Below are positions 24,591 through 40,094 of a DNA stretch of 64,000 nucleotides, piece after piece. This DNA comes from Pseudomonas syringae (GTDB taxonomy: Bacteria > Pseudomonadota > Gammaproteobacteria > Pseudomonadales > Pseudomonadaceae). The DNA lies in the NCBI RefSeq assembly GCF_001698815.1, contig NZ_LGSI01000020.1, positions 257,483-321,482 on the forward strand, written 5' to 3'. The notes under the pieces were generated by a model. It saw only the letters and a program-made list of their open reading frames with translations. It was not told the DNA's origin and made no database searches. Within the stretch, counting starts at the first letter, position 1. Every line of letters starts with the position of its first letter. The translations under genes and the position numbers were made by a program.

Positions 24591-24705
24591 GCAGTCACCT
24601 TTGAGACCATTAACCATCGTGATTCGGTTGACCCCGGCATCACACCGGGCGATTGTGCGGGCACAAGGGCTATCTTTCGTATCGGCATATTGCCAGAATA
24701 CTTAT

Positions 24706-24713
24706 GGTATTCC
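24706..24713. promoter_or_regulatory. GGTATTCC, near-copy of the island operator
   Basis: In the pxpA/pxpBC divergent gap, GGTATTCCAAAAGCATTCC differs by one base in its core from GGTATACC at 2464 and 10417 and has a similar downstream half. It may bind the same GntR-type regulator. Confidence 0.3.
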
Positions 24714-24747
24714 AAAAGCATTCCATCGTTTTGCGGAGAGTTGAGCA

Positions 24748-25479
24748 GTGAACATCGAGGAGCCCGAGCCGTCTCTACGCATTGCGCCAATCGCCGATCA
24801 TGCGCTGTATATCGATTTTGGCGAAGTGATCGATGCGGCGGTCAATCAGCGCGTCACGGCCCTGGCCAAGCGTGTCGGCGAGGCACGTATCGATGGCGTC
24901 ACCGGCCTGATCCCCACCTACCGCGCGTTGACTGTGGCGTACGACTGCACCCGCATCCGGCAAGGGCGCCTGATCGGGCACATTGAGCGGCTGTTGGCTG
25001 AGCCCGATGCGGCGGCTGACCCCGTGCGCAGCTGGGAGGTGCCGGTGGCCTATGGCGGTGAACACGGTGTCGATCTTCAATGGCTGTCTGAGCATCACCA
25101 ACTGGATCCTGACACCGTCATTCGCTTGCACAGCGCGGTGGGTTATCGCGTCTACATGATCGGCTTCATGCCAGGGTTCGCCTACCTGGGCGGGCTGGAC
25201 GCGCGGCTGCACACCTCGCGCCGCGAGTCCCCCCGGCTGAAAACCCCAGCGGGCTCGGTCAGCATTGGCGGCATGCAAACGGCCGTGGCCTCGGTCGAGG
25301 CGCCGAGCGGCTGGCACCTGATCGGTCGAACCCCGGCGCGCAGTTTCGAGCCGTCGCGTGAGCAGCCGTTTCTGTTCAGCGCCGGTGACGAAATCCGCTT
25401 TACCCCCATCAGCACCGAGGAATTCGATGCGCTGTGGGCACAACCTGATTACGTCCCGCAATGGACCTGGCGCACATGA
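24748..25479 (+). CDS. pxpB: 5-oxoprolinase subunit B (KipI-like)
   Basis: A 243-residue KipI/PxpB protein: DHALYIDFGEVID, GLIPTYRALTVAYD, GYRVYMIGFMPGFAYLGGLD and TPAGSVSIGGMQTAVASVEAPSGWHLIGRTP are diagnostic. Start is GTG at 24748. It acts in one complex with PxpC, whose start overlaps its stop (ATGA). The set would convert 5-oxoproline, a product of glutamine or glutamate N-terminal cyclisation, to glutamate. Confidence 0.92.
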   Translation: MNIEEPEPSLRIAPIADHALYIDFGEVIDAAVNQRVTALAKRVGEARIDGVTGLIPTYRALTVAYDCTRIRQGRLIGHIERLLAEPDAAADPVRSWEVPVAYGGEHGVDLQWLSEHHQLDPDTVIRLHSAVGYRVYMIGFMPGFAYLGGLDARLHTSRRESPRLKTPAGSVSIGGMQTAVASVEAPSGWHLIGRTPARSFEPSREQPFLFSAGDEIRFTPISTEEFDALWAQPDYVPQWTWRT

Positions 25480-26441
25480 GCAGTTTTCACGTTTTGAATC
25501 CGGGGCTGCTCACCACGCTGCAGGATCGTGGCCGCACAGGCTATGAGGATCGCGGCGTGCCGCCCTCCGGTGCGCTCGATGAATTGAGTTTTGCCATCGC
25601 CAATGCACTGGTTGGCAACCAGGCTGGCACTGGCGCGCTTGAGTTCACGCTGGTCGGCGGGCAGTTTCGCGCAGGAGAGGGCGGTTGCGTCATCGCAGTC
25701 ACGGGGGACATGCAGGTGTTCATCGACGATCAGCCCGTCGCGCCCTATCAGTGCCACGTACTGAGTTCGGGCGACGTGCTCAAAATCGGTCGGGTATTGA
25801 GCGGGGCTCGCGGTTATCTGGCGGTTGCCGGTGGGTTTGCAGCCGAGCCGGTACTGGGCAGCGTCTCGACCTTGGTGCGCGGCGCACTGGGCGGCTTTGC
25901 CGGCCGCGCCCTGGCCAAGGGTGACGAGTTACCGCTGGCGGCGCCTTCGCAATACTTGCCATTGGCCGCGCGCGCGCCCGGTCAGCGCCTTCTGCCGCAA
26001 CGAGAGCATCAGCCGCTGAGGGTCGTGTTAGGTCCGCAACAGGCACATTTCAGCCCGGCGCAAGTTCGGCGCTTTCTCAGAGAATCCTTCCAGGTGTCAG
26101 GCCAGAGCGACCGCATGGGCTACCGCCTGACCGGCCCGGTCATTACTCATCTCAAAGGCTTCAATATCGTCTCGGATGCAATCAGCACCGGCAGCGTGCA
26201 GATCCCCGGCAGTGGTCATCCGATTATCGCCATGCATGATCGGCAAACCACCGGTGGATATCCGAAAATCGCCACGGTGATTCGTGCGGACCTGGCCCGC
26301 CTGGGGCAACTCAAGCCGGGCGACTGGCTGAGCTTTGCCGAGGTCTCGGTGGAGGACGCCGAAGAACTGTGGTGCGAGCGTCAGGTGCTGCTCAACGCAT
26401 ATCTGGATGAACTGTTGATGCGCTACCGCCGTCGCCGTTGA
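25476..26441 (+). CDS. pxpC: 5-oxoprolinase subunit C (KipA-like, biotin-dependent carboxylase-related)
   Basis: A 321-residue protein of the allophanate hydrolase subunit 2/KipA family: NPGLLTTLQDRGRTGYEDRGVPPSGALDE, LEFTLVGGQFR, SDRMGYRLTGP and HDRQTTGGYPKIATVI. The ATG at 25476 overlaps the pxpB stop and fits the family N-terminus better than 25461. Third subunit of the ATP-dependent 5-oxoprolinase. Confidence 0.92.
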   Translation: MSSFHVLNPGLLTTLQDRGRTGYEDRGVPPSGALDELSFAIANALVGNQAGTGALEFTLVGGQFRAGEGGCVIAVTGDMQVFIDDQPVAPYQCHVLSSGDVLKIGRVLSGARGYLAVAGGFAAEPVLGSVSTLVRGALGGFAGRALAKGDELPLAAPSQYLPLAARAPGQRLLPQREHQPLRVVLGPQQAHFSPAQVRRFLRESFQVSGQSDRMGYRLTGPVITHLKGFNIVSDAISTGSVQIPGSGHPIIAMHDRQTTGGYPKIATVIRADLARLGQLKPGDWLSFAEVSVEDAEELWCERQVLLNAYLDELLMRYRRRR

Positions 26442-26511: not shown

Positions 26512-27306
26512 TTACTTGATGATCGAGCGGATCGGTTCTTTTGGCGCCGGATCGTAGCCCACCAGGTCCAGCGTCAACTTCGCGTACGTGCCGTCGGCAT
26601 TCATGTCCGCCAGCGCTTTGTTGACGGCTTTCACCAGGTTGTTTTTACCCAGTTTGAAGGCAAAGCCCTTCTGGATATGGCTGACGTAATCGTCGGTCAT
26701 GACAATCGGCAGGTGCACGGTCTTCATCAGGTAAGCGGCGCTTATGGAGTCGGTGATCACCGCATCGGTGTTGTGATTGATCAGGTCCTGGATTGCGTCG
26801 GATTCGGCCTTGTAGTTCTTCAGCACGCCGCCTTTTTCTTCGGCGATGGCGCTGAAGGTGGTAGACACCTGAACACCGACGTTTTTTCCCTTCAGGTCGG
26901 CGGCAGATTTGATCGGGGAGTTTGGCGGCGTCACCACGCGCCCACCCGATTCCAGCCAGCCATCGGAAAACAGAATCTGTTCCTGGCGTGCCGGCGTGAT
27001 GTCCATCGCCGCGCTGATCACATCGAACTGATTGGCGGCAAGTCCCACCAGCAACGCGTCCCACTTGATCAACACCGGGGTGTATTCAAGGTTCAGGCGC
27101 CGGGCGACTTCCTTCATGACACGGATTTCCAAGCCATCGAGCTGCCCCCCCGCGTTGCGCATGCTGAACGGTGCAAACGTGCCTTCGGTGGCAACGAGCA
27201 ATTTGCCCGGACGGATCAGCTCCAGTTGCTCATCCGCATTCGCCCAGGTGCCAAACGTCAGCACCGACAATGCCGCGAACATTTGCACGATATTTCTGAC
27301 TTTCAT
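26512..27306 (-). CDS. Orphan periplasmic amino-acid-binding protein (SBP family 3)
   Basis: A signal peptide (MKVRNIVQMFAALSVLTFGTWANA) precedes a family 3 binding protein, close paralogue of the protein at 7426-8217: EGTFAPFSMRNAGGQLDGLEIRVMKEVARRLNLEYTPVL and DDYVSHIQKGFAFKLGK are nearly shared. No permease or ATPase accompanies it, so it probably delivers its ligand to the transporter encoded at 8261-9720. ATG 27306 is used; a GTG six bases upstream is also possible. It lies about 100 bases downstream of the ureohydrolase gene, in the same direction. Confidence 0.9.
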   Translation of the reverse strand: MKVRNIVQMFAALSVLTFGTWANADEQLELIRPGKLLVATEGTFAPFSMRNAGGQLDGLEIRVMKEVARRLNLEYTPVLIKWDALLVGLAANQFDVISAAMDITPARQEQILFSDGWLESGGRVVTPPNSPIKSAADLKGKNVGVQVSTTFSAIAEEKGGVLKNYKAESDAIQDLINHNTDAVITDSISAAYLMKTVHLPIVMTDDYVSHIQKGFAFKLGKNNLVKAVNKALADMNADGTYAKLTLDLVGYDPAPKEPIRSIIK

Positions 27307-27402
27307 GGTCACGCTCTCTTTGCTGGTTAGTGTTGAACGTGGGGTCGCAGGCGCGGCAGGCCGGGGCTTTATTCCATCAAGTCAATCAAGGTCATCGGTC
27401 AA

Positions 27403-28368
27403 TCAAACGGGCGTCGACCCGCGTACGCGCTCGCTGGCGAGCAACGACATGAATTCACTGAGGACTGTAGCCCCCAGCAACGAGGTGATTTGACCTGGGC
27501 CTTCGTACATCGGGCTGATTTCGGTGACGTCGCAACCCACCAGATTGATACCGTGCAGGGCACGCAGCAATTGCAGGGTTTCGCGAGTGGTCGGGCCGCC
27601 CGCTTCGGGGGTCTGCACACCGGGCGCCGAGGCGGGGTCGACGAAGTCCATGTCGAAGGTGATGAACGTCGGACGACCGCCGGTGCGCTCGCGGATGCGC
27701 TCGGCCAACGTTGCAATACCCATTTCAAACATCTGATCGGTGGTCACCACCTCGTAGCCCAGATCGATCGACTGACTGATATCGGTGGTCCGAAACAGTG
27801 AGCCGCGCAGGCCGATTTGAATCGAGTGGGCAGGATCCACCAGATTCTCTTCCACCGCGCGACGAAACGGCGTGCCGGCGCTGTACAGCTTGTCGGCGAA
27901 ATACTTGTCCCAAGTATCGCTGTGGGAATCGAATTGCACCAAGGCCACCGGCCCGTGTCTGGCCGCCACAGCGCGCAACTCGCCCAGGGTCACCGAATGG
28001 TCGCCGCCGATCCCGAAGGGGACCACGCCGGCGTTGACCAGGCCTGCCACTGCCTGCTCGATCCGCGCCAGGCATTCCTCTTCATAGCCCGGCACCACTG
28101 CAGCGTCGCCGGCGTCGGCGATGTTCAGGGCTTCAAAGATATTGATGTTGTCGCGATACGGGCTGATAGGGCGCAGCATCACTGACATCGCGCGCACCGC
28201 ATTGGGCGCGAAACGCGATCCGGTCCGGAACGCCGCGCCAGAATCGGACGGCAAACCGATGACCGCTGCGTCGAGGCCTTCCAGCGTGGTCGCCATGGGC
28301 AAGCGCATGAAAGTCGGTACGCCGCAGAAGCGTGGCGTGGAGAGAGAATCGGTGGGTAATACGCTCAT
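27403..28368 (-). CDS. Ureohydrolase (agmatinase/guanidino-acid hydrolase family)
   Basis: A 321-residue binuclear manganese hydrolase: GIGGDHSVTLGE (H124), VQFDSHSDTWDKY (D147, H149, D151) and ITFDMDFVDPASAPGVQTPEAGG (D239, D241) supply all six metal ligands. The family splits urea or guanidine from agmatine, guanidinobutyrate, guanidinopropionate or related compounds; the SHSDT variation of DAHxD fits guanidino-acid hydrolases more than arginase. GGAG precedes the ATG. It lies between the orphan binding protein and the DapA-family gene, all on the minus strand. Confidence 0.88.
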   Translation of the reverse strand: MSVLPTDSLSTPRFCGVPTFMRLPMATTLEGLDAAVIGLPSDSGAAFRTGSRFAPNAVRAMSVMLRPISPYRDNINIFEALNIADAGDAAVVPGYEEECLARIEQAVAGLVNAGVVPFGIGGDHSVTLGELRAVAARHGPVALVQFDSHSDTWDKYFADKLYSAGTPFRRAVEENLVDPAHSIQIGLRGSLFRTTDISQSIDLGYEVVTTDQMFEMGIATLAERIRERTGGRPTFITFDMDFVDPASAPGVQTPEAGGPTTRETLQLLRALHGINLVGCDVTEISPMYEGPGQITSLLGATVLSEFMSLLASERVRGSTPV

Positions 28369-28446: not shown

Positions 28447-29370
28447 TTACGCAGGCAGCACGATGGCTGAGCGCGGGTCGCTGGCCAGTGCGCGCAGTGC
28501 GACGGCCACTTCTTCCAGCTCCGCGCCTTGCAGGTCCAGTAACGGCTGGCGGACCGAGCCGCCCTTGAACCCGCGCAGGTTCATGATCGCCTTGGTGGTT
28601 TGGGGCTGGCCGTGCTTGCGCGCCAGTTCCCGCAGCGGGAACCAGAGACGATGCAATTCAATGGCCAGCTTTGCATCACCGGTCTGCAGCGCGCGGAAAG
28701 TCGCCAGGATCAGCTCGGGCAAGGCACCGCTATTGGTGGAACTGATGCCGTCGAAACCGGCCATCATCGGGCCGCTGAACACTAGGTCCGATGCGCAGAA
28801 CAGCCGCACCTTGCCACCCAGCTTGTTGGCGATGCGGTCGATGACCGTAGGGGTCAGGTCACCCTGTTTCAAGCCCACCACGCCTTCGATGGCTGCCAGT
28901 TGCTCGATCACTGGCACCGAGAGGGTGATGCCGATGCCCGGTGCGTTGTAGATCAGAATCCCGGTTTTCGACAGGGGGGCCATCTGCTTGAAGAAGCTGA
29001 CGATCTGGGCGTCGGTGATCTCGGAGACGAACGGTGGCGTGACCATGGGCAGGCCGCCCAGATCACCGGCCAGTTGCGTCAGTTCACGTACCACACGGCT
29101 GTCGGAACCTGCGGTGCAGAGCATCACCGGAACGCGGTCGCCGACGATCTCCATGACTTTGCGGAACATGTCGGCACGCTCTTCAACAGTCATTACGGGG
29201 AATTCGCCGTACGTCCCGCCGATCAGCAACCCGTCATAACCCAGCGCGATGACGCGCTCGATGTTTTCGGCCATGGCCGGGTAATCGAATTCACCGGTGG
29301 TGGTGAAAGGGGTGACGGTGATGTTGAAGATACCGTGAAGACGTTCGCGACATTCTTGAAGGGTCTGCAT
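28447..29370 (-). CDS. DapA/N-acetylneuraminate lyase-family aldolase
   Basis: A 307-residue TIM-barrel Schiff-base enzyme: FNITVTPFTTTGEFD, GGTYGEFPVMTVEER (the usual GTTGE appears as GTYGE), catalytic Tyr141 in LIYNAPG and Schiff-base Lys168 in VVGLKQGD. The variant substrate-binding motif separates it from true dihydrodipicolinate synthase and points to a catabolic aldolase or dehydratase for a 2-oxo acid derived from the island. Divergent from the GntR gene at 29539, with a TTGTAT-N6-ATACAA dyad between them. Confidence 0.88.
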   Translation of the reverse strand: MQTLQECRERLHGIFNITVTPFTTTGEFDYPAMAENIERVIALGYDGLLIGGTYGEFPVMTVEERADMFRKVMEIVGDRVPVMLCTAGSDSRVVRELTQLAGDLGGLPMVTPPFVSEITDAQIVSFFKQMAPLSKTGILIYNAPGIGITLSVPVIEQLAAIEGVVGLKQGDLTPTVIDRIANKLGGKVRLFCASDLVFSGPMMAGFDGISSTNSGALPELILATFRALQTGDAKLAIELHRLWFPLRELARKHGQPQTTKAIMNLRGFKGGSVRQPLLDLQGAELEEVAVALRALASDPRSAIVLPA

Positions 29371-29416: not shown

Positions 29417-29434
29417 TTGTATTCATATATACAA
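29417..29434. promoter_or_regulatory. TTGTAT-N6-ATACAA operator candidate
   Basis: Perfect 6-base arms with a 6-base AT-rich spacer in the gap between the divergent aldolase and GntR genes; an additional half-site TTGTAT lies at 29408-29413. The form matches GntR-type operators, so autoregulation and control of the minus-strand operon are likely. Confidence 0.5.
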
Positions 29435-29538
29435 TGATTTTCTTGGGCGATGTCGCCACTGTGTGTTCAAACGGGTGTGGGGTTGCGGCGAGGGTCCTTG
29501 GTAGGATGTGCGCACTTAATTTTCGAGGTTCACCGTCC

Positions 29539-30495
29539 ATGGCTTCGTTACCGGGTCAGAACAGCCGCCGTCTGGCCAACCAGATTCTCGATTTCGTGCG
29601 CAAGGCCAAATTCGAGCCTGGGCATCACCTGCGCGAACAACAGATCGCCGATTTGCTTGGCGTCTCACGCACACCGATCCGCAACGCGCTTAAGTTGCTG
29701 GTCGAGCAAGACATCGTCGAAGCCCGGCGCAATCAGGGGTTCTTTCTGCTCAAGGCGTTCGATGCCCTGCAACGGGTGGAGCTGAGCGTTTCGTCGAGCC
29801 TTGAGGAATCGCTGTATGAGCGACTGGTGAATGACCGGCTCAGCGGCGAGATCGCCAATTCCCTGACCCAGACCGAGATCGCCCGGCGCTATGAGGTTGA
29901 CCGTGTCACGCTGATGAAAACCCTGACGCGCCTGGCCGAGGATGGCCTACTGATTCGCAACAAAGGCCACGGCTGGAGCTTCTTGCCCACGCTGGACAAC
30001 GACGAAGCGCTGCGTAGCGGTTACCGGTTTCGCATGATGGTGGAGCCGGCCAACTTTCTACAGCCGCAGTTCAGGCCCAACGCCGCCGCCCTTGAGCGCT
30101 CGCGACTGCAACACCTGTATCTGGCCGGCCACGCGGATTCCGCGGCGGTCAGCAACGCGCAACTGTTCGAAACCGATGCGCAGTTTCACGAAATGTTCGC
30201 CGAGTTTGGCGGCAACACCTTCGTGATTCAGGCCATCCAACAACAGAACCGGCTGCGCAAGCTGCTGGAATTCGCCGGGTACGCCAACCGCCGCCGCGTG
30301 CGCGACTGGTGCACCGAACACCTGGCGATCATCGACGCGGTGGCTGATGGGCGATACGCCGAGGCCAGCGAGTTGATGCGCAACCACCTGACCCACGCCG
30401 ATGACGCGGCGCAACCGGGCAAGAGACCGGTGCGCAAAACGGCGGCAAAACCCCGCACGCCGCGCAAGGCGGCGAGTGTCCCGATTCCGGGTTAG
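29539..30495 (+). CDS. GntR-family regulator with two winged-helix domains
   Basis: From the ATG at 29539 the protein has 318 residues. Residues about 10-70 are a normal GntR winged helix (LREQQIADLLGVSRTPIRNALKLLVEQDIVEARRNQGFFL). Residues about 86-150 form a second one (LSGEIANSLTQTEIARRYEVDRVTLMKTLTRLAEDGLLIRNKGHGWSF). A helical FCD-like ligand domain follows, and a basic Lys/Arg/Pro-rich tail (KRPVRKTAAKPRTPRKAAS) ends the chain and could contact DNA. Usual FCD regulators have one DNA-binding head and about 230 residues. Upstream ATGs at 29434 and 29506 are possible but lack the family's start pattern. Confidence 0.85.
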   Translation: MASLPGQNSRRLANQILDFVRKAKFEPGHHLREQQIADLLGVSRTPIRNALKLLVEQDIVEARRNQGFFLLKAFDALQRVELSVSSSLEESLYERLVNDRLSGEIANSLTQTEIARRYEVDRVTLMKTLTRLAEDGLLIRNKGHGWSFLPTLDNDEALRSGYRFRMMVEPANFLQPQFRPNAAALERSRLQHLYLAGHADSAAVSNAQLFETDAQFHEMFAEFGGNTFVIQAIQQQNRLRKLLEFAGYANRRRVRDWCTEHLAIIDAVADGRYAEASELMRNHLTHADDAAQPGKRPVRKTAAKPRTPRKAASVPIPG

Positions 30496-30536: not shown

Positions 30537-31322
30537 ATGGATTTTGGTTTGCAAGGTAAACGTGCGCTGGTGCTGGGCTCCAGTCGTGGTCTGGGCCTGG
30601 CGATTGCCCAGTCACTGGCTGCCGAAGGCGTTGCGGTCACGTTATGCGGACGCAGTCGTGAAGCACTAGCCGATGCGGCCGCCAAGCTCACCGCCTCAGG
30701 TGCTCAGGCAGATTATCTGGTGCTGGATCTGGCCGATCCTGTTCAACGGCGCAGCGCCTTTGACGGTCTGCTGGCCGAAGGTCGCGGCTACGACATTCTC
30801 GTCAATAACGGTGGCGGCCCTGCACCGGGCGCGGTGGCCGCGGTTGCAACCGCCCAGTGGCAGGGCGCGTTCGACAGCATGGTCAGCTCGCTGTTTGAAG
30901 TCACCGCCAGGATCCTTCCCGGCATGCGCGAGCGTGGCTGGGGCCGGGTGATCAACGTAGTGTCTTCCGGCGTTGTCCAGCCCATTCCCAACCTCGGCAT
31001 CTCCAATACGTTGCGCGCCAGCATCATCGGCTGGGCCAAGACCTTGGCGGCTGAAGTGGCCGCAGACGGCGTCACCGTGAACTCGGTCATTCCCGGTCGC
31101 ATCGCCACCGCGCGTGTCGGCGAGCTGGATGAAGCCGCGGCCAAGCGCAGCGGCTCCACCGCCGCCGCGGTTGCCGAAGCTTCGCGCAATACCATCCCGG
31201 TCGGCCGTTATGGCGATCCCGCTGAATTCGCCGACGCCGTGGCTTTTCTGGCCAGCGCCCGCGCCGGCTACATCACCGGCACCAGCCTGCGGGTCGATGG
31301 CGGCCTGATCCGCAGCATCTGA
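30537..31322 (+). CDS. Short-chain dehydrogenase/reductase lacking the YxxxK motif
   Basis: A 261-residue SDR with the cofactor loop GSSRGLGLA, the NNGGGP motif and INVVSSGVVQP (active-site Ser). Where the catalytic YxxxK should follow, the sequence reads LGISNTLRASIIGWAKTLAAE, so both Tyr and Lys are replaced. The C-terminus (GYITGTSLRVDGGLIRSI) is normal. A subfamily of SDRs carries this SNxxR variant; its chemistry is not clear. AGAGAGG precedes the ATG. Co-directional with the GntR gene upstream and the aminotransferase downstream. Confidence 0.85.
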   Translation: MDFGLQGKRALVLGSSRGLGLAIAQSLAAEGVAVTLCGRSREALADAAAKLTASGAQADYLVLDLADPVQRRSAFDGLLAEGRGYDILVNNGGGPAPGAVAAVATAQWQGAFDSMVSSLFEVTARILPGMRERGWGRVINVVSSGVVQPIPNLGISNTLRASIIGWAKTLAAEVAADGVTVNSVIPGRIATARVGELDEAAAKRSGSTAAAVAEASRNTIPVGRYGDPAEFADAVAFLASARAGYITGTSLRVDGGLIRSI

Positions 31323-31430: not shown

Positions 31431-32636
31431 ATGTCAACACCGCTTCTGGCGCAGAGAATGCGCCGTGTCCGGCCGTCGCCGACAGCAGAAATCTCCGACA
31501 AGCTCCGGGCGCTCGCCGCGGCCGGACATTCGGTGATCAATTTGGGTGAGGGCGAGCTGGATTTCCCCACCCCGGCGCACATCGCTCAGGCCGGTATCGA
31601 CGCGATAAATGCCGGTGAAACCAAGTACACCGCAGTCCCCGGCAGCGGGCGTCTCAAGCAGGCGATCATCGACAAGTTCAGTCGCGAAAACGGCCTGAAC
31701 TACAGCACAGCCGAAGTCATCGCGGGGGCCGGCGCCAAGCAACTGATCTTCAATGCGCTGATGGCCACGGTCAATCCGGGCGATGAAGTGATCATCGCGG
31801 CCCCTTACTGGGTGTCGTACCCGGACATGGTGTCCCTGGCCGAAGGCGAAACCCGGATCGTCCTGTGCCATGAAGCCGATGGCTGGAAACTGCAGCCTGC
31901 GGCGCTTGAAGCGGCGATCACCAAGCGTACCCGCTGGGTGCTGCTCAATTCGCCGAACAACCCCACCGGTGCGGTCTACAGCGAAAGCGAAATCAGGGCG
32001 CTGACCGACGTCTTGTTACGCCACGAGCACGTGCTGGTGCTGGCCGACGACATCTATGAGCACACCCGTTTCGGGCCGCCGTTTTTCACCCCGGCTCAGG
32101 TCGAGCCGCGCTTGTTGCCGCGCACCTTGACGGTCAATGGCCTGTCCAAGGCGTTCTCCATGACTGGCTGGCGGATCGGTTACGCCGGCGGGCCGACCTG
32201 GCTGGTGGATGCGCTACAGGTCCTGCAGTCCCAGAGCACCTCGAACCCGAGCTCGATTTCCCAGGGCGCAGCGATTGCGGCACTGGACGGCGGCACCGGA
32301 TTCATCCATGACTGGATCGGCAGGCTTGCAAAGCGTCGGGACCGGGTGCTGGACAGTATCGGGCGCATCAACGGGCTGAGCTGCGCGATGCCGGAAGGGG
32401 CATTTTATCTGTTTGTGAACTGCCAGGGCATGTACGGCAAGCGGACGCCTGACGGCAAGGTCATTGCCAGCGATCTGGACTTCGCCAGCTACCTGCTGGA
32501 TGCAGCGAAAGTGGGGACAGTGCACGGCACGGCCTTTGGTGCGCCGGGTTACCTGCGGATCGCGTATGCGGTGGATGATCGCGTGCTGGACGAAGCGTGC
32601 CAGCGGATCGAAGCGGTGTGTCACGAGTTGGGCTGA
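31431..32636 (+). CDS. Class I/II PLP-dependent aminotransferase
   Basis: Intact 401-residue fold-type I aminotransferase of the aspartate aminotransferase group: INLGEGELDFPTPAHI, NSPNNPTG, LADDIYEH and Schiff-base Lys240 in VNGLSKAFSMTGWRIGYAGG. GGGAGG precedes the ATG. It is the undamaged paralogue of the gene at 2501, and the two flank most of the island. It probably handles the amino acid released by the neighbouring deacylase or racemase steps. Upstream, TACCAATAAATGCAA (about 31397-31411) resembles the flank of the GGTATACC site at 10417. Confidence 0.9.
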   Translation: MSTPLLAQRMRRVRPSPTAEISDKLRALAAAGHSVINLGEGELDFPTPAHIAQAGIDAINAGETKYTAVPGSGRLKQAIIDKFSRENGLNYSTAEVIAGAGAKQLIFNALMATVNPGDEVIIAAPYWVSYPDMVSLAEGETRIVLCHEADGWKLQPAALEAAITKRTRWVLLNSPNNPTGAVYSESEIRALTDVLLRHEHVLVLADDIYEHTRFGPPFFTPAQVEPRLLPRTLTVNGLSKAFSMTGWRIGYAGGPTWLVDALQVLQSQSTSNPSSISQGAAIAALDGGTGFIHDWIGRLAKRRDRVLDSIGRINGLSCAMPEGAFYLFVNCQGMYGKRTPDGKVIASDLDFASYLLDAAKVGTVHGTAFGAPGYLRIAYAVDDRVLDEACQRIEAVCHELG

Positions 32637-32689: not shown

Positions 32690-33865
32690 TCAGATCAGCA
32701 GCAATGGACGCTCAAGGGCGCCCAGGACGCGGTAACCGGTTTTGGTAATGACCACGGTCTCGCTGACGCCGACGGTGAACTCGCCGTAGATGCGTAAAGC
32801 GGGCGGAATGTGGAACGTCATGCCCGGTTGCAGCTCGGTTTTCACTCCGCTGTACAGGCTCAGGATCGAGCCTTCGCCCCAGTCCGGCGCGAATGAAACG
32901 CCCACCGAGTACCCCGTGCGTTTCTTGAACGCGTCGGTGAAGCCGGCTTTGTCAATGACCGCCTGACACGCGATGTGCGATGCCTCGCACGGCGCTCCCG
33001 GACTCAAGGCATCCAGTGCAGCCTGCAACGCGTCCTGGCAGACCTTTTCCATTTCCACCGCAATGGACGGTGGCTTGCCCAGCCAGGCACAGCGCATCAG
33101 TGCGGCGTGGTAGCGATCGTGGCTGGCCGCCATTTCCAGAAACACCGGCTCACCCGCTTGCAGCTTGCGTCGACGCCAGGTGCCGTGGGGAATGCCGGTG
33201 CGCGGGCCGCTGGACACCAGCGGTTCCATGCCCATGTACTCGGACCCTGCGGCAATCGAGGCCTGGAGCATTGCCGCCACCAGATCATTTTCACTGGCGC
33301 CTTCACGCACGGCGTTCATGCCCGCGCGCATGCCGGCGTCGACATAACGCGCGGCGAATTCCAGTTTTTCCACCTCGGCAGGGGATTTCACCGCGCGCAG
33401 TTTTTCCACGATGCCGGCCGCGTCATGGATGGCGCCGAGCTTGGCTTGCAGCGCTTCGTAGACCGCGATTGGCAGGAACCAGCCGCGCTTGTCGATGGCA
33501 ATCCGGCGCTTGCTCCAGCCTTTTTGCTCGATGGCGGCCACCAGGAAACTCACCGGATCGTCTCCGTCCAGGTACACCGACGCATCGCTGATGAAGGTGT
33601 TGGCGATGAAGTTGAAGTATTCAAGCTGGCGAATGACAAACATCGGCTCGCCGTCCACCGGCAGCACCAACGCCTGAAAGGTGTAGTAGCCGGGCGTTTG
33701 CTGGCCGGTCAGGTAGAAAATGTTCTCGGGTCCCGTGACGATCATCACGTCGATGTCGGCTTCAACCATATTGGCTTTGGCGCGGCGAACGCGTTCGCCG
33801 TATTCATGTGCAGCGAAGGCCGACTCGCTGCCTTGGCGTACGTTGACGGGGGGCGCTAGGTTCAT
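32690..33865 (-). CDS. M24 'pita-bread' hydrolase without metal ligands (creatinase/ectoine-hydrolase-like)
   Basis: A 391-residue two-domain protein of the creatinase/prolidase M24 family: N-terminal domain with PENIFYLTGQQTPGYY, C-terminal domain with PLVSSGPRTGIPHGTWRRR. The five metal ligands of M24 peptidases are not conserved: the DxGxxxxxYxSDxTR block is VFLEMAASHDRYHAALMR and the late EP motif is FHIPP. Residues corresponding to the creatinase active site remain (H227 in IPHGTW, E369 in VSETVV). This pattern is that of creatinase and ectoine hydrolase, which cleave C-N bonds without metal. Last gene of the operon; its start overlaps the epimerase stop by one base. Confidence 0.85.
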   Translation of the reverse strand: MNLAPPVNVRQGSESAFAAHEYGERVRRAKANMVEADIDVMIVTGPENIFYLTGQQTPGYYTFQALVLPVDGEPMFVIRQLEYFNFIANTFISDASVYLDGDDPVSFLVAAIEQKGWSKRRIAIDKRGWFLPIAVYEALQAKLGAIHDAAGIVEKLRAVKSPAEVEKLEFAARYVDAGMRAGMNAVREGASENDLVAAMLQASIAAGSEYMGMEPLVSSGPRTGIPHGTWRRRKLQAGEPVFLEMAASHDRYHAALMRCAWLGKPPSIAVEMEKVCQDALQAALDALSPGAPCEASHIACQAVIDKAGFTDAFKKRTGYSVGVSFAPDWGEGSILSLYSGVKTELQPGMTFHIPPALRIYGEFTVGVSETVVITKTGYRVLGALERPLLLI

Positions 33866-34962
33866 CAGAAACTCCGTATCAGTTGAGTTTTTTCGAGATC
33901 AAGGGTGATGCCCAGGCCCGGTGCCGTGGGCATCCAGGCTTGGCCATCCCGGTAGAGAAGGGGGCTTGCGGGGTCGTCACTCAAACCATCGGCGCCATAC
34001 AGTTCGGCAAATCGAGGCTGAGTGGTGCAGGCCACATGCAGCGCTGCGGCGGTGGCGGCAGCGCCTTCGTTCATCTGGCCGATCATGCAGGTGACGCCGG
34101 CCTGGGTCAGTCGTCGAGCAGCGGACACACAGGGGGCGATGCCGCCGATCTTGACCAGTTTTAGGTGCGCCCAGACCTTGCCGCCGAGGGCGCACAGCCG
34201 GTCCACGTCCTCACTGCCCGCCAGGCCTTCGTCGATCATCAGCGGCAGCGGGCTTTGCTCGGCCAGGCGCTCCATGGCCTCCCAGCCACCGGCGGCGATG
34301 GGTTGTTCGGCGTAGGCCAGATCAAATCGCGCCAGTGCCTCGAGGTGACTCAAGGCATCGTGTTGCGGCCATTGGCCGTTGACGTCCACGGCGATCTTGA
34401 TCTCGCTGCCGAAACGCTCGCGCAGTGCCTGCAGGCGAATCAGGTCCTCGTCGAAACTGCTCACCGCGATGCGCACTTTGAGGTCGCGAAAGCCACGGTT
34501 TACGTACGCATCGGCCTGCGCCAGGAAGACCTCGAACGGTGACCAGAACAGCGTCTGGTTGCTGGCATAACGCACCTTTGCGTCAGGCGCCCCCAGCCAT
34601 TGCGCCAACGGCAGACCGGCCCGGCGCGCGAGCAGGTCATGCAGGGCACAGTCGATCAGCGTGCGCACCGGCATGCTCAGCGCGGCCGCCCAGTGCGGCA
34701 TCTGCGCCAACAGTTGGGCGGGGTCCTGCTGCCAGGACACCGCCGAGACCGCCTTCAACGCCTGGGCGATCACTTCGCCAGGTGTGTAGCCGTTGAGGTA
34801 GGCGATGTTGATCCGCACCTCACCGACCGCCTGATGCTCACCGTCGTCCAGGCACAAATACAACGCCTGAAGCTCGCCTACACTGCCGGACGCCGCGGTG
34901 TGCAGCTGCACGCCGTTGCCGTAATGCAGGTCGGCGCGGCGCAGTGAGGCGGTCAGACTCAT
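33865..34962 (-). CDS. Enolase-superfamily racemase/epimerase
   Basis: A 365-residue enolase-superfamily enzyme: acid/base residues K162 (LKVRI, a KxR variant of KxK) and K268 (LKLVKIGG), metal ligands D193 (VDVNGQW), E219 (AEQP) and D244 (IDEG). The two lysines on opposite faces fit the muconate-lactonising subgroup used by N-succinylamino acid racemases and dipeptide epimerases. Start and stop both overlap the neighbours (ATGA), so it is coupled to the upstream M20 deacylase. The inferred job is to invert an N-blocked amino acid or dipeptide before or after deacylation. Confidence 0.87.
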   Translation of the reverse strand: MSLTASLRRADLHYGNGVQLHTAASGSVGELQALYLCLDDGEHQAVGEVRINIAYLNGYTPGEVIAQALKAVSAVSWQQDPAQLLAQMPHWAAALSMPVRTLIDCALHDLLARRAGLPLAQWLGAPDAKVRYASNQTLFWSPFEVFLAQADAYVNRGFRDLKVRIAVSSFDEDLIRLQALRERFGSEIKIAVDVNGQWPQHDALSHLEALARFDLAYAEQPIAAGGWEAMERLAEQSPLPLMIDEGLAGSEDVDRLCALGGKVWAHLKLVKIGGIAPCVSAARRLTQAGVTCMIGQMNEGAAATAAALHVACTTQPRFAELYGADGLSDDPASPLLYRDGQAWMPTAPGLGITLDLEKTQLIRSF

Positions 34963-36128
34963 GCCTGCACCAGCGGCAGCATTTTCAGGGCGATGTCGCG
35001 GTAGATCAGGCTCGCTGCGATGAATTCATCGATGGGCACGAACTCGTCCGGCTTGTGCGCAACCGCCAGGGTGCCGGGGCCGATGACGGTGCCGGTGGTG
35101 CCCAGGCTGCGAAAATGCACCAGGTCACAGCCGCCCTGAAAGCCGAACGGTCCGGCGTTGCCGTGGTTATGCTCGCGGCAGGCGGCCAGGCTGGCCTGGA
35201 CGATGGGTTCTTCCAGCGCGGTTTCGGTGGCGCCGCCGGTGGTCGGGATGTATTTAAGCACTTCAGCGCGCACGCCAAAGCACTCGTTGGCCAGGGCCAG
35301 CAGTTGGTCGATTTCGGCCTTGACCTCGTCTTCGTTTTCGCCTGGAACCATCCGCCGGTCCAGCAGCAGATCGCAGGCGCCGGGCAGTACGTTGTCGGCA
35401 TGGCCGCCGTTGATGCGGGTGACGGTCAGGCTGGCTTCGCCCACCAGCGCGTGGCAGTGGCATTTCACCGACTGCTCGTGGTGTTGCTCGATCAGGCCCA
35501 GCAACTGGCCGGCGCGGTAGATCGCGTTTTCGCCCAGATGCGGGGTGCCGGAATGCGCAGTCACGCCATGCACCCGCACCAGCGGCCGGAGGCTGCCCTT
35601 GTGCGCGGTGAAGGCTGAGTTCGACGTAGGCTCGCCAATCACGGCGAAGTCGATGTGCGGCGGCTGATTGGCAACGTAGTGCTTGGCGCCTTCGCTGGCG
35701 ATTTCCTCGTCAGCGGTAAACACCGCCATCAGTGTGCCGGACCACTGCTCGCGGCAGGCGATCAGCATGCGGGTGGCTTCGATCATCGCCACCATCGGCC
35801 CTTTGGCGTCGCAACCACCGCGGCCGTACAGCTTGCCATCCGCCTCGTGCAGCACGAACGGATCGGTCTTCCAGCCGTCACCGGCTGGGACCGTGTCGAT
35901 GTGGGTGTTGAAGGCGAAGGTCGGCCCCGGGCCGTTTTCGTAGCGTGCGATGACGTTGACGCGGCCGGGTTTGTACTCGGACAGCGACAGGTCAAAGCCT
36001 TCGGCTTCCAGCAGCACTTGCAGGCAGCGGGCTGCTTCCAGCTCGTGGCCTGGCGGGTTCTCGGTGTTGATCGCGACCAGTGTGGCGAGGTCGCGTTTCA
36101 TGCGGGCAAAGTCGGGTTGCTGATTCAT
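34959..36128 (-). CDS. M20 deacylase (acetylornithine deacetylase/ArgE-like)
   Basis: A 389-residue M20 metallohydrolase of the ArgE/DapE type: FNTHIDTVPAGDGW (His and Asp), GRGGCDAKGPM (bridging Asp), FTADEEIASEGAKH (Glu pair), VIGEPTSNSAF, and VRVHGVTAHSGTPHLGENAI in the dimerisation domain. It removes an N-acyl group from an amino acid. The ATG at 36126-36128 is 10 bases from the ATPase stop; the in-frame ATG at 36158 would overlap that gene. The gene before it is the transporter, the gene after it the epimerase. Confidence 0.88.
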   Translation of the reverse strand: MNQQPDFARMKRDLATLVAINTENPPGHELEAARCLQVLLEAEGFDLSLSEYKPGRVNVIARYENGPGPTFAFNTHIDTVPAGDGWKTDPFVLHEADGKLYGRGGCDAKGPMVAMIEATRMLIACREQWSGTLMAVFTADEEIASEGAKHYVANQPPHIDFAVIGEPTSNSAFTAHKGSLRPLVRVHGVTAHSGTPHLGENAIYRAGQLLGLIEQHHEQSVKCHCHALVGEASLTVTRINGGHADNVLPGACDLLLDRRMVPGENEDEVKAEIDQLLALANECFGVRAEVLKYIPTTGGATETALEEPIVQASLAACREHNHGNAGPFGFQGGCDLVHFRSLGTTGTVIGPGTLAVAHKPDEFVPIDEFIAASLIYRDIALKMLPLVQA

Positions 36129-36138
36129 GGTAGGGATC

Positions 36139-36897
36139 TCAGTGCAGGATCTGATCAAGAAAGTGGCGAGTGCGCGGGTTTACCGCACCGCCAAAGAAGT
36201 CGGCATTGCTGGCGTTTTCGATGATTTCGCCGCTTTCCATGAACACGATGCGGTCTGCCGCACGGCGGGCGAAGCCCATCTCGTGGGTCACCACCAGGCT
36301 GGTCATGCCTTCGTTGGACAGTTCGGCCATCACGTCGACCACTTCGCGGATCATCTCCGGGTCCAGTGCCGAGGTCGGCTCGTCGTAGAGCATGACTTTG
36401 GGTTTCATGGCCAGCGAACGGGCGATGGCCACGCGTTGCTGCTGACCGCCAGAAATCTCGTCCGGGTAGGCATCGGCCTTTTCCGGGATGCGCACTTTGC
36501 CCAGCAACTCCACGGCGAGGTCGTGGGCGTCGGTGCGACTCATGCCGAGCACTTTCATTGGTGCGAGCATGATGTTTTCTACCACCGACAAGTGCGAGAA
36601 CAGCTCGAAGTTCTGGAACACCATGCCGATGTCGCGGCGCAGAAGGTGGACCTGGCGCTTGTCGTAGTCGATGCGTCGGCCTTCGAAAAACACGTCGCCG
36701 CCGTCGGCCGGTTCCAGTTGATTGACACAGCGCAGCAACGTCGATTTGCCGGAGCCCGAGGGCCCGATGATGACCACGGTTTCCCCGGTGTGGACGTTCA
36801 GTGAACAGTTCTTGAGCACGTTGAACGGGCCGTAGCTCTTGTCGATACCGATGAGTTCCAGCAGCGGTTTGCCGTTGGCCGAGAGATTCTTTTGCAT
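36139..36897 (-). CDS. Amino-acid ABC transporter ATP-binding protein
   Basis: A 252-residue GlnQ-type ATPase with Walker A GPSGSGKST, Q-loop MVFQNFELFSH, signature ISGGQQQRVAIARSLAMKP and Walker B VMLYDEPTSALDPE. CAGGAGC precedes the ATG. It works with the permease 28 bases upstream. Confidence 0.92.
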   Translation of the reverse strand: MQKNLSANGKPLLELIGIDKSYGPFNVLKNCSLNVHTGETVVIIGPSGSGKSTLLRCVNQLEPADGGDVFFEGRRIDYDKRQVHLLRRDIGMVFQNFELFSHLSVVENIMLAPMKVLGMSRTDAHDLAVELLGKVRIPEKADAYPDEISGGQQQRVAIARSLAMKPKVMLYDEPTSALDPEMIREVVDVMAELSNEGMTSLVVTHEMGFARRAADRIVFMESGEIIENASNADFFGGAVNPRTRHFLDQILH

Positions 36898-36925: not shown

Positions 36926-37651
36926 CTAGCGAACGGAGGCGCCGCGTGGGTTGCCGAGCATGCGTTCGGTCAGGCTGGTACGCGGACCCTTGCGGCGTTT
37001 TTTTGGATCGAGCCGGCGTTCGATCAACGCTTGGACGCCCATGAACAGTGTGGTCAGGATCAGGTAGTAAATGCCTGCGGCGGTGAGCGCTTCGAAGTAG
37101 CGGAAGTTGGAGCTGGCAGTCTGGTTGGCCACCAGCATCAACTCTTCGACGGCGACCACGGAAACCAGCGCGCTGAGCTTGAGCATGCCGACCATCTGGT
37201 TGCCGATGGGGGGCAGAATCATCCGCGTGGCCTGGGGAATCACCACATGACGCAACACCGCAAAGGGCTTCATGCCCAACGCCAGGGCCGCTGTCCGCTG
37301 GCCCTTTTTCACCGCCTGCATGCCGGACCGAATGATCTCGGCCATGTAGGCGCCTTCATTGAGGGACAACGCCAACACGGCACTGACCATCGCCGACAGG
37401 CGAATGCCGAAGGTCGGCAGGACGTTGTAGATGAAGATGATCTGAAACAACACCGGTGTGCCACGAAACAGCCACAGGTAAATCAGCGCCAGGGTGCGAC
37501 CCATGCGGGTCTGGCTGTCTTGCAGCAGGGCGAGCACAACGCCGACGCCCACGCCGAACACTAGCGAATAGGCGGTGATGAGGAGGGTGGTCACGGCGCC
37601 GTGAAAAAACGCCGGGGATATCAGGTATTGCCAAACCAGTTCAAACGACAT
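36926..37651 (-). CDS. Amino-acid ABC transporter permease
   Basis: A 241-residue HisM-type inner-membrane permease: LIYLWLFRGTPVLFQIIFIY, NEGAYMAEIIRSGMQAVKKGQRTAALALGMKPF (EAA loop) and a basic C-terminal tail. GAGGA precedes the ATG. Second gene of the operon that starts at 38537. Confidence 0.92.
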   Translation of the reverse strand: MSFELVWQYLISPAFFHGAVTTLLITAYSLVFGVGVGVVLALLQDSQTRMGRTLALIYLWLFRGTPVLFQIIFIYNVLPTFGIRLSAMVSAVLALSLNEGAYMAEIIRSGMQAVKKGQRTAALALGMKPFAVLRHVVIPQATRMILPPIGNQMVGMLKLSALVSVVAVEELMLVANQTASSNFRYFEALTAAGIYYLILTTLFMGVQALIERRLDPKKRRKGPRTSLTERMLGNPRGASVR

Positions 37652-37718: not shown

Positions 37719-38537
37719 TCAGTCGAACAGCGAAACCGTTACAGGAAACTTCCATTTTTCGATGATCTGTTTGTAAGTGCCATCCGCGACCACTTCCTTG
37801 AGCGCAGCCTGCAGGGCATCGCTCATCGCCGTGTTGCCCTTCGCCACGGCCATGCCGATCCGGGTTTCGGATTCAAACTCAGGGCCCACGGTTTTGAAGA
37901 CGCCGGGCACATCGCGCAGCATCTGCACCACGCCAGGGGTGGAATCGAATGTTGCGTCGGCGCGACCCTGGCGCAGGCTCAGGGCCGATGCCTGAGCGGT
38001 CGGCAGGGTCTGGACCTTCACCGACTCCAGGCCAGCGTCCTGGCAGCGTTTGTTATCCTGGCGCGCGTAGGTTTCTTCGATACCGCCCAGGGTCACGGCC
38101 ACCGTCCTGCCGCACAGCGAGTTGTCGCGGCCGGTGACTTTTGCCGGATTGTCCTGAGTCACCACCACCTGGTTGCCGATGCGCAGGTAAGGCACGAAAT
38201 CGACCTGGGTCGCCCGCGCCTCGTTCATGTACATGGCCGAGTTGATCAGGTCCACACGCTTGCCCTGCAACGCCGGGATCAGGCCCTGGAACTCCATGTT
38301 CATGGCGGTTGGCTTGAGGCCCATCTTTTTACCCAGCGCTTCGATCAGGTCGATATCGAAGCCTGTCAGCTTGCCATTCGCCTGAAACTCGAACGGCGCG
38401 AATGTCGCGGCCGTGCCGTAGGTGAGCAGGCCTGGGGTCATCACCGGTGCCGAAGGTGCAGCGTTGACCAGCGGTGCTGCGAGGAGCGCGGCCATCAGGG
38501 TGATGAAGCGCAGACTGAAGCGAGACGATGTCATCAT
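37719..38537 (-). CDS. Periplasmic amino-acid-binding protein (SBP family 3)
   Basis: A 272-residue receptor with signal peptide (cleaved after VNA), then LLTYGTAATFAPFEF, FDIDLIEALGKKMGLK and MNEARATQVDFVPYLRIG. The SLCGRTVAVTLGG cysteine and a second at KRCQDAG could form a disulfide. AGGAG sits five bases before the ATG. It is first in the operon with permease, ATPase, M20 deacylase, epimerase and M24 hydrolase, so the imported solute is probably an N-blocked amino acid or a cyclic/derivatised one. Confidence 0.9.
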   Translation of the reverse strand: MMTSSRFSLRFITLMAALLAAPLVNAAPSAPVMTPGLLTYGTAATFAPFEFQANGKLTGFDIDLIEALGKKMGLKPTAMNMEFQGLIPALQGKRVDLINSAMYMNEARATQVDFVPYLRIGNQVVVTQDNPAKVTGRDNSLCGRTVAVTLGGIEETYARQDNKRCQDAGLESVKVQTLPTAQASALSLRQGRADATFDSTPGVVQMLRDVPGVFKTVGPEFESETRIGMAVAKGNTAMSDALQAALKEVVADGTYKQIIEKWKFPVTVSLFD

Positions 38538-38753: not shown

Positions 38754-39983
38754 TCACGCGCGCTGGCCCTGGTGGCGGGTGCCAGTGACGGCTAGCGCAG
38801 CCAGCAAGAAATCTTCGAGCAACGGATGGGCACGGGTGCTACGAGATCCAAGTTCAGGATGACCCTGCATGCCCTTGTAAAACGGATGTCCAGGCCAGTC
38901 GATGGCGTCGACGATCTGCCCGCTGAGGTCGGTTGCGGTGATCTCAAGCCCGGCATCGCGCAAGGGTTGAACGAGCGCAGGATTCAGCATGAAGCGGTGG
39001 TTGCAGCGTATTGTCGAGTGATCAGCGAACCGCTGCGTCAGTTCCGGATCGACAAATGTCAGGGCGTGGGCGCCCAGACGATGAGTCGGCAGGCCGGGGA
39101 CGCCGGCCATGGGAGAAAAACTCTTGATCGGCGCGTCCGGAACGGCTTCAGCCATATTGGCCTGATCGAGGCCGGGGCACGATTGCGCCAAAGCAGTGGT
39201 CATCGATTGCATGCCCAGGCACAGCCCCAGCGTGGGAATCATGGATCGCAGGCCGTGGCGCGCGGCTTCGATCTGCCCCGGCACGTTGCCCATGTCCGAG
39301 CCACCCGGCAAGACAATCCCGGCCACCGCAGACAGATGGGACAACTCCAACTGCGGCGCGGGAATAAAACGCACCTGGAGATCGATGCCGGTCGCATCCG
39401 CTGCATCGCCCAAGGCGGCGAGGGTGGCGGGGTAGACGTCGGTTTGATCAGCGTGCGAACCAACCAGGACCACCGTCAGCCTGTCTCGTCCCGGGGCGGC
39501 AGTTTTGTGGTCTTGCAAGCGGCCCCAGCGACCAAAACGGTCGCGGCTCCAGACGCCATACCGGGTCGGCTGACCCTGAGCGGTCAGCAGCTCCCAACCA
39601 TCCTCCAGACTCCGGGCCATCAGCTGGACCACCTGGACGCCTGCGCTGTTGGCTTTATCGAGCAGCAGGGTGCGCAAGGCTTCGCTGTGGAATTGTGGGT
39701 GCCACGGCACCACGACGTCCTGCCGGAGGGCCATGTCGATCATCTCGTCGACACTGCTGGCAGGCATCACGTCGCGCCCGGTGATCCGTTCGTACCAGAG
39801 CAGCCCGCTGGGCACCAGCGTGCCGGTGGCGGCCACCATCTGCACGGTGTCTGCCCCGTGCTCGGGTAGAAATTCAGCGGTGCAGTGCATCAACACCGCA
39901 TCATCGACTTGAGAGACGCTGGCGGCTAGTGCGCCGTACAGGGCAGAGCAGCAAGGTGAATGTGTGACCAGCGTGAGGGCCAT
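38754..39983 (-). CDS. Unknown N-terminal domain fused to a CTP-synthase-type glutamine amidotransferase domain
   Basis: From the ATG at 39981-39983 (GGAGA upstream) the protein has 409 residues. The C-terminal half (about 168-400) is a class I glutaminase: GIVLPGGSDMGN, nucleophile Cys255 in TLGLCLGMQS, and His375/Glu377 in KGMQGHPELGSRSTRAHPLLEDFL, closest to the glutaminase domain of CTP synthase. The N-terminal 165 residues (VTHSPCCSALYG, LWYERITGRDVMPASS, VVPWHPQFHSEAL) match no family I know and lack the CTP-synthase amidoligase motifs. It ends with a linker (RWGRLQDHKTAAPGRDR). A gamma-glutamyl amide hydrolase or an ammonia-channelling transferase are both possible. Confidence 0.7.
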   Translation of the reverse strand: MALTLVTHSPCCSALYGALAASVSQVDDAVLMHCTAEFLPEHGADTVQMVAATGTLVPSGLLWYERITGRDVMPASSVDEMIDMALRQDVVVPWHPQFHSEALRTLLLDKANSAGVQVVQLMARSLEDGWELLTAQGQPTRYGVWSRDRFGRWGRLQDHKTAAPGRDRLTVVLVGSHADQTDVYPATLAALGDAADATGIDLQVRFIPAPQLELSHLSAVAGIVLPGGSDMGNVPGQIEAARHGLRSMIPTLGLCLGMQSMTTALAQSCPGLDQANMAEAVPDAPIKSFSPMAGVPGLPTHRLGAHALTFVDPELTQRFADHSTIRCNHRFMLNPALVQPLRDAGLEITATDLSGQIVDAIDWPGHPFYKGMQGHPELGSRSTRAHPLLEDFLLAALAVTGTRHQGQRA

Positions 39984-40094
39984 CAAGGTCTCCGTAGCGT
40001 CGCGCACCGGCGCAATCATTGATGCAATCTAGAGTGTCCCTTTCAGCTCGATAGAGATAGCCTGTATTTTTTGTTTCAATCGAAAGTATTTCTT

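Follow-up and report, generated by a model that had tools for sequence, protein, structure and literature searches.

A candidate gamma-amide hydrolase of CTP-synthase-like architecture in a conserved, catabolic-type operon of Pseudomonas syringae

Introduction

In the window analysed here (the whole stretch of 64,000 nucleotides of Pseudomonas syringae DNA), one gene encodes a glutaminase domain of the CTP-synthase type, preceded by about 165 residues that resemble no family at first sight. What such a protein does, and where its N-terminal half came from, are the questions raised by this locus. An earlier note on this DNA had suggested that it might be either an ammonia-using enzyme or a hydrolase of gamma-glutamyl compounds, serving the island in which it lies, and had proposed it as a candidate for an undescribed activity. 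We refer to the protein as GAT. Homologues in public records are named 'CTP synthase' or 'gamma-glutamyl-gamma-aminobutyrate hydrolase family protein'. A full-text literature search on the Agrobacterium operon, its estimated old locus tags, CTP-synthase paralogues and methyleneglutamine did not turn up the family among the matches listed, subscription journals being mostly outside its coverage.

Results

GAT carries an apparently complete glutaminase half

The gene and the parts of its C-terminal half are as follows.

38754..39983, minus strand: GAT, two-domain CTP-synthase-like protein of 409 residues (open reading frame, profiles, structure matches, homologue alignments)
38787..39491, minus strand: class-I glutaminase domain, residues 165-399 (Pfam PF00117, CTP synthases in the PDB)
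39219..39221, minus strand: codon of Cys255, the putative nucleophile (alignment to the triad position)
38853..38861, minus strand: codons 375-377, His375-Pro-Glu377 of the triad (alignment to the triad positions)

The frame runs from 39983 down to 38754 and encodes 409 residues plus a stop codon; the longest open reading frame begins at 40019 (421 residues), and the homologue alignments begin at the Met at 39983. Two Pfam families exceed their gathering thresholds, GATase (PF00117; 65 bits over residues 189-392, cut-off 22.8) and Peptidase C26 (PF07722; 22.3 bits, cut-off 20.5). The closest solved structures are CTP synthases, with alignments that begin at residue 147 or later, the widest of them spanning 147-405.

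The catalytic positions were compared with E. coli PyrG. Cys255 lies within PTLGLCLGMQ, and His375 and Glu377 lie within GMQGHPEL. The full CTP-synthase-type triad described in the earlier note is thus borne out by alignment. The glutamine-type pocket is intact too: Gln259, Glu279 and Arg330 align with the residues of PyrG that presumably hold glutamine, and all three are kept. Over 38 aligned members (GAT and 37 homologue loci, namely 29 others with an intact triad and 8 without the cysteine), Cys is present in 30, all of which also carry the His, the Glu, Gln259 and Glu279, and 29 of these 30 carry Arg330. Judged by its residues, the glutaminase half looks catalytically complete.

By the tests made, GAT is not a member of the CTP synthase family (PyrG; PRK05380, TIGR00337). 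It shares with these enzymes the triad, the glutamine pocket, the order of the domains and an alignment of the whole modelled fold. In contrast, it is about 135-140 residues shorter than the 543-550-residue enzymes, and it scores 127.3 against a cut-off of 308 with PRK05380 (residues 151-399) and 114.6 against 462.75 with TIGR00337 (residues 165-394). It also differs in sitting in a catabolic-type operon, in a genome that has a separate pyrG (a 550-residue frame with the P-loop SSLGKG intact). From its residues, GAT should work like the glutaminase half of a CTP synthase. The annotation of its family as 'CTP synthase' is probably wrong.

Three other glutaminase-like families were compared. The CTP synthase C-terminal-related (seleno)protein, PRK06186, has a glutaminase domain of the same type (72.1 bits); however, its cut-off of 260 is missed, its 228-long profile matches only from residue 170 of GAT, and six PRK06186-like sequences fall in a separate clade of the tree. 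PuuD and SpuA (Peptidase C26) are gamma-glutamyl amide hydrolases, acting as gamma-glutamyl-GABA hydrolase. They share the class-I glutaminase fold with GAT and are listed after CTP synthase in the structure comparison (Z 19.6-20.7), but their chains of 237-249 residues cover residues 165-406 only, and GAT scores 15.9 against 266 with the PuuD equivalog PRK11366. Gamma-glutamyl-CDP-amidate hydrolase is another hydrolase of glutaminase fold, without an N-terminal domain. Its profile, NF045546, matches 3 of the 38 members weakly (best E 0.00034) and is absent from the 16 families listed for GAT itself at E<=1. The CTP-synthase cut-off is missed and no described function was found in these searches; GAT is a candidate for an undescribed activity.

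Origin of the N-terminal half

39504..39983, minus strand: N-terminal domain, residues 1-160, predicted alpha/beta, probably a shrunken CTP-synthase amidoligase without a P-loop (models and fold comparisons; the profile tests were not significant)
39915..39968, minus strand: putative degenerate P-loop segment VTHSPCCSALYGALAASV, residues 6-23, with Tyr16 at the position of the P-loop Lys (hhalign register and column census)

The earlier note described the N-terminal 165 residues as neither the CTP-synthase ligase domain nor any family that its author recognised. For sequence profiles this stands. Profile searches assigned no known family, with no Pfam or NCBIfam match of GAT that starts before residue 151. 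Across the 38 members at a nominal limit of E 10, 11 Pfam families matched, CTP_synth_N not among them, and those unlike glutaminases were weak (1-4 members each, best E 0.016); the corresponding NCBIfam results list 25 of 37 families. In an hhalign comparison with the CTP-synthase N-domain profile, residues 1-30 were placed on CTP synthase residues 1-31 (E 0.056) with Tyr16 on the P-loop Lys. This match is not significant, as 22 of 200 column shuffles scored as high and the reversed profile scored higher (17.2 vs 15.3). With the domain split in halves, regions picked after the structure result was known, 9/150 and 21/150 shuffles reached the score. A global full-length alignment put the N-terminus in another register, from CTP synthase residue 171, and at a low threshold the alignment joined no more than residues 1-25 to the P-loop region. 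In the first register, which is itself not significant, the column of the P-loop Lys holds Tyr in 26 members, Phe in 10, His in 1 and Leu in 1, so that the Lys of CTP synthases is absent in 38 of 38.

Since these profile comparisons are not significant, the case for homology of the N-terminal half rests on structure comparison. An AlphaFold2 model of the whole protein, built on six sequences and with residues 39-56 below pLDDT 50, had a mean pLDDT of 81 and a pTM of 0.84. It aligns with CTP synthases from residue 1 to about 404, with a best Z of about 30. The ten best CTP-synthase entries have Z 30.4-29.7 over 363-382 aligned residues at 3.5-4.2 A, and the whole-chain CTP synthases listed have Z 21.3-30.4 over 317-386 residues. 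The gain in Z from the N-terminal half is small, glutaminase-only chains already reaching 28.7 against the whole model. In Foldseek, however, TMq rose from 0.52 for isolated glutaminase domains to as much as 0.72 for whole CTP synthases, and the N-terminal half therefore adds structural overlap. Modelled alone (pLDDT 77, again from six sequences), the N-terminus gave a different picture: its best fold match was to SRP-type GTPases (Z 7.5, below the level of a clear match), and many chains of diphthine synthase followed, with Z 6.1-7.5 among the best 50. The best 50 Foldseek matches of this model were mostly P-loop NTPases, RecA/KaiC types among them, with E 3e-3 or higher, likewise short of a clear match. 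CTP synthase was absent from the top 50 in both fold searches.

Two origins may account for these observations. In a true fusion, the first 165 residues would be an alpha/beta domain of unrelated origin that was joined to a glutaminase of the CTP-synthase type. The absence of profile matches before residue 151, the shuffle tests and the ranking of SRP GTPases and diphthine synthase by the isolated model all fit a fusion. On the other hand, the CTP-synthase alignment of the whole model takes in residues 1-165 with the same order and placement of domains, and the N-terminal domain was never found without the glutaminase in 388 genomes (E<=0.001): searched alone, it matched in two, both times in one frame with a glutaminase. 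We regard a true fusion as a serious possibility, if not a probable one. Alternatively, the domain derives from the ligase of CTP synthase. AlphaFold may be recalling the domain placement of CTP synthase; even so, a shrunken, P-loop-less amidoligase appears from the models to be the likeliest origin, preferred by a fair measure over an unrelated domain. The denial of a CTP-synthase ligase in the earlier note is thus weakened at the level of structure. A degraded ligase, which that note had named as the finding that would count against its proposal, becomes the likelier origin because the model of the full-length protein can be laid over CTP synthase from its first residue on. The sequence tests fall short of proof of this origin, and the gene is not decaying (see below).

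A conserved operon surrounds GAT

The following genes adjoin GAT in the window.

37719..38537, minus strand: SBP, family-3 amino-acid binding protein (profiles, alignment, operon)
36926..37651, minus strand: amino-acid ABC permease (gene order; annotated orthologue in L018)
36139..36897, minus strand: amino-acid ABC ATPase (gene order; annotated orthologue in L018)
34959..36158, minus strand: M20 deacylase, ArgE/DapE-like (TIGR01910 subfamily, 235 bits, cut-off 217.6)
33865..34962, minus strand: enolase-superfamily (MR/MLE) enzyme (profiles; one comparison through the L018 orthologue)
32690..33865, minus strand: M24 protein, closest solved relative ectoine hydrolase DoeA (profiles, structure match)
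31431..32636, plus strand: class I/II aminotransferase (profiles, operon)
30537..31322, plus strand: SDR oxidoreductase (profiles, operon)
29434..30495, plus strand: GntR-like regulator (named from GntR-annotated orthologues)
28447..29370, minus strand: DHDPS/aldolase-family enzyme (profiles, operon)

The M20 reading frame has a TTG start, and its true start is probably slightly downstream. Known families gave little guidance to the individual functions. The M24, enolase-superfamily, DHDPS-family, SBP, aminotransferase and SDR proteins reached no cut-off among the NCBIfam families listed, and the M20 protein passed only the broad TIGR01910. The M24 protein fell below both ectoine hydrolase cut-offs (NF038259, 298.5 vs 575; TIGR02993, 219.8 vs 613).

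The earlier note had proposed a survey of the neighbourhood. At the 29 other intact-triad loci, of which two are truncated at contig ends and one at the boundary of the extracted stretch, the M24 and enolase-superfamily genes were each found beside GAT in 27, and the M20, SBP, permease and ATPase genes each in 26, at set identity thresholds. By the same counts the GntR regulator was found in 25, the aminotransferase in 24, the DHDPS-family enzyme in 22 and the SDR in 16. The conserved neighbours make up what looks like a catabolic island. In Agrobacterium fabrum C58 and Rhizobium lusitanum, GAT is followed by genes for a VOC protein, a 2-hydroxyacid reductase and a D-amino-acid transaminase, and the aminotransferase, aldolase and SDR genes went undetected at the thresholds used. 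Between the window and locus L013, GAT is the least similar of the operon genes (70% identity; the others 81-95%).

The association with M24 was also seen in a plasmid collection. There, organism and match position assign 30 of 40 matching records to the GAT family; the remaining 10, which match only from residue 152 or later, resemble CTP synthases. When the lists were compared by eye, the same 30 records held an M24 gene at 60-80% identity, and none of them was among the 20 records whose best M24 match lies below 60%. These 30 records are mostly closely related A. fabrum and Pantoea strains and thus do not represent independent events; five of the roughly 30 (L018, L019 and L062-L064) were used here.

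The make-up of this operon bears on what becomes of the ammonia. GAT could serve as a glutaminase subunit, its ammonia being channelled to a partner enzyme encoded in the operon; the class-I glutaminase domain, its complete triad and the nearby PLP enzyme and dehydrogenase would agree with this. Apart from an importer and a regulator, the conserved part of the neighbourhood encodes hydrolases, an enolase-superfamily enzyme, an aldolase, an aminotransferase and a dehydrogenase. A known ammonia-accepting ligase is absent among these proteins, and the make-up is catabolic. For this reason an ammonia-using partner is less likely, and we consider channelling improbable. Of the two activities raised in the earlier note, plain hydrolysis is the likelier.

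Two details of the neighbouring proteins were also recorded. In the M24 protein (32690-33865), the residues that we take to be the usual M24 metal ligands are missing when the sequence is read by eye. In the SBP, all 27 aligned orthologues, the one in the window among them, carry Ser at the position aligned with the Asp of GlnH that we assume binds the alpha-amino group; the carboxylate-binding Arg is kept in all 27. A change from Asp to Ser would suit an N-blocked ligand.

An adjoining gene set and the class of substrate

A second gene set (2351-27312) adjoins the operon, with an agmatinase-family gene between the two.

27403..28368, minus strand: arginase-family gene (TIGR01230 agmatinase, 177.1, cut-off 174.3)
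26512..27312, minus strand: second amino-acid SBP (65% identical to the SBP of a pxpABC sister operon in L100)
23814..26441, mixed strands: 5-oxoprolinase-type genes pxpA (minus), pxpB (plus) and pxpC (plus) (homology to pxp genes)

Besides pxpABC and the second SBP, the set includes a carbon-nitrogen hydrolase, an amidohydrolase, a DUF1989 protein, a D-amino-acid transaminase (361 bits, cut-off 320) and a DadA-like D-amino-acid dehydrogenase (472 bits, cut-off 383). Taken as a whole, it has the look of an island devoted to D-, N-blocked or lactam amino acids. A hydantoinase/carbamoylase-like gene at 5799-7018 is in two pieces (53% from 5799, 38% from 6032) and is perhaps broken or frame-shifted. 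Elsewhere in the window, a PALP enzyme at 42525-43481 scored 512.8 with PRK06110 threonine dehydratase (cut-off 317); no such gene was detected near GAT at the 29 other intact-triad loci, and neither was the agmatinase-family gene (0/29).

In R. lusitanum, as in the window, the GAT and pxp gene sets stand side by side. No pxp genes were detected in the stretches examined at the other 36 GAT-family loci. In four plasmid regions, pxpABC stands together with a VOC gene, the genes of an amino-acid ABC importer and an M24 gene of 50-53% identity; GAT was undetected in these four. Three of them encode both a D-amino-acid transaminase and a reductase of the 2-hydroxyacid type, and a hydrolase of the hydantoinase/carbamoylase type is likewise found in three. 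A fifth region, which carries ehuB, resembles an ectoine locus.

The adjoining pxpABC, D-amino-acid and hydantoinase/carbamoylase-type genes suggest that the substrate belongs among the N-blocked, N-carbamoyl or lactam amino acids. As individual compounds, 4-substituted or cyclised glutamine, opines, nicotianamine and N-carbamoyl or N-acyl glutamine were considered as candidates. The idea that GAT replaces 5-oxoprolinase is weakened, as the window and L019 carry both.

Distribution and selection

A scan of GTDB contigs found five relatives: Pseudomonas sp. MWU16-30317 (70% identity), Paracidovorax wautersii (48%), Martelella alba (43%) and two Bosea (42% and 40%). The plasmid collection added A. 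fabrum (C58 pAt, ATU_RS26150, annotated 'CTP synthase'), R. lusitanum, Shinella and Pantoea. The two-domain form is not a chance product, as such homologues come from alpha-, beta- and gammaproteobacteria and the gene is under purifying selection (see below). Whole-genome surveys at E<=1e-50, with counts that include the genomes that started each search, gave 6/347 genomes in the order of Bosea (one of them, G494/L091, divergent), 2/298 in Pseudomonas, 1/250 in the family of Paracidovorax and 21/246 in the family of G427, where intact and Cys-less forms are pooled. The alignments omit two of the 23 survey places, G1215 and G1278, the contig of G1278 being that of L015. Among 398 genomes sampled across the phylum, 75 matched at 1e-40 and only 2 from residue 1; the other matches begin no earlier than residue 146 and lie in frames of 433-939 residues, mostly of CTP-synthase length. 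Since few of the genomes surveyed carry matches from residue 1, the two-domain form is rare and patchy.

Between GAT and L013 (69-70% identical), dN/dS was 0.18 for the whole gene, 0.27 for residues 1-160 and 0.11 for residues 165-399. Values of 0.27 against L069 and of 0.50, at a high dS, against L014 were obtained. By these estimates GAT is under purifying selection in both halves and is not a decaying gene. The 29 intact-triad members have a median identity to GAT of 30% in the N-terminal part and 47% in the C-terminal part.

A side branch without the catalytic cysteine

At 8 of the 37 homologue loci (L071, L073, L078-L081, L087 and L090) the nucleophile is replaced, by Asn in 6 and by Gly in 2, and Gln259 and Glu279 are lost too. 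The eight form one clade (support 0.999), which is nested inside the intact family in a tree rooted on CTP synthase (support for the whole family 0.835). None lies within a GAT-type operon (0/8); at the same identity thresholds, the M24, enolase-superfamily, M20, SBP, permease and ATPase genes were detected at none of them. Their median identity to GAT is 31% in the N-terminal part and 36% in the C-terminal part, and the only pair compared, L079/L080, has a dN/dS of 0.16. In the Cys-less members the N-terminal domain is about as well conserved as the glutaminase, which suggests a role for this domain beyond the hydrolysis of glutamine. In L079, L080 and L081 the paralogue lies no more than about 6 kb from what we take, from reading the sequences, to be a methionine-aminotransferase-like gene, an omega-amidase-like gene and a purine-catabolism-like (hpx) gene set.

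GAT might act mainly as a ligand-binding regulator in which catalysis is dispensable. A paralogous clade that lacks the Cys, retains the N-terminal domain as well as intact members do (31% vs 30%) and is nested in the intact family would agree with such a role. However, His375 and Glu377 are kept in all 30 Cys-bearing members, and the Cys-less clade lies outside the operon. We think a regulatory GAT very unlikely, if anything slightly more so than a channelling subunit.

Discussion

The explanation that we favour, with moderate confidence, is that GAT is a gamma-amide hydrolase derived from CTP synthase, with a dead ligase half, and takes part in the catabolism of N-blocked amino acids. Hydrolysis of a gamma-amide is plausible because gamma-glutamyl amide hydrolases of glutaminase fold, such as PuuD and SpuA, exist.

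The pathway may be pictured as follows. The ABC importer would take up a blocked or cyclised amino acid, which would perhaps in this order be unblocked or isomerised by the two hydrolases (M24 and M20) and the enolase-superfamily enzyme. A glutamine-like amino acid would then be held by Gln259, Glu279 and Arg330, and Cys255 would attack its gamma-amide, His375 and Glu377 completing the triad. GAT would thus release the gamma-amide group as ammonia or an amine, without synthesis of CTP. The aminotransferase, aldolase and dehydrogenase could take the carbon onward by transamination and aldol cleavage. The N-terminal 160 residues would be an amidoligase remnant that has lost the P-loop lysine and the middle of the domain; because of these losses it would be expected neither to phosphorylate UTP nor to join ammonia to anything. 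This half would presumably no longer bind ATP, and its present role is probably to shape or gate the pocket for the substrate.

A more far-reaching scenario is offered only tentatively and is less probable than the favoured explanation itself. A CTP synthase ancestor may have given up its synthase half and become the dedicated gamma-amide hydrolase of an undescribed pathway for N-blocked or lactam-type amino acids, common to plant- and soil-associated proteobacteria, its dead ligase domain serving as a substrate-recognition lid, and a side branch may then have lost the cysteine.

For practical purposes, the label 'CTP synthase' on proteins of this family can mislead metabolic models. The family also marks a conserved operon, including one on the pAt plasmid of A. 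fabrum C58, which is testable by gene deletion. More generally, GAT points to a way in which an essential enzyme of biosynthesis may be reduced to its hydrolase half and yet be kept.
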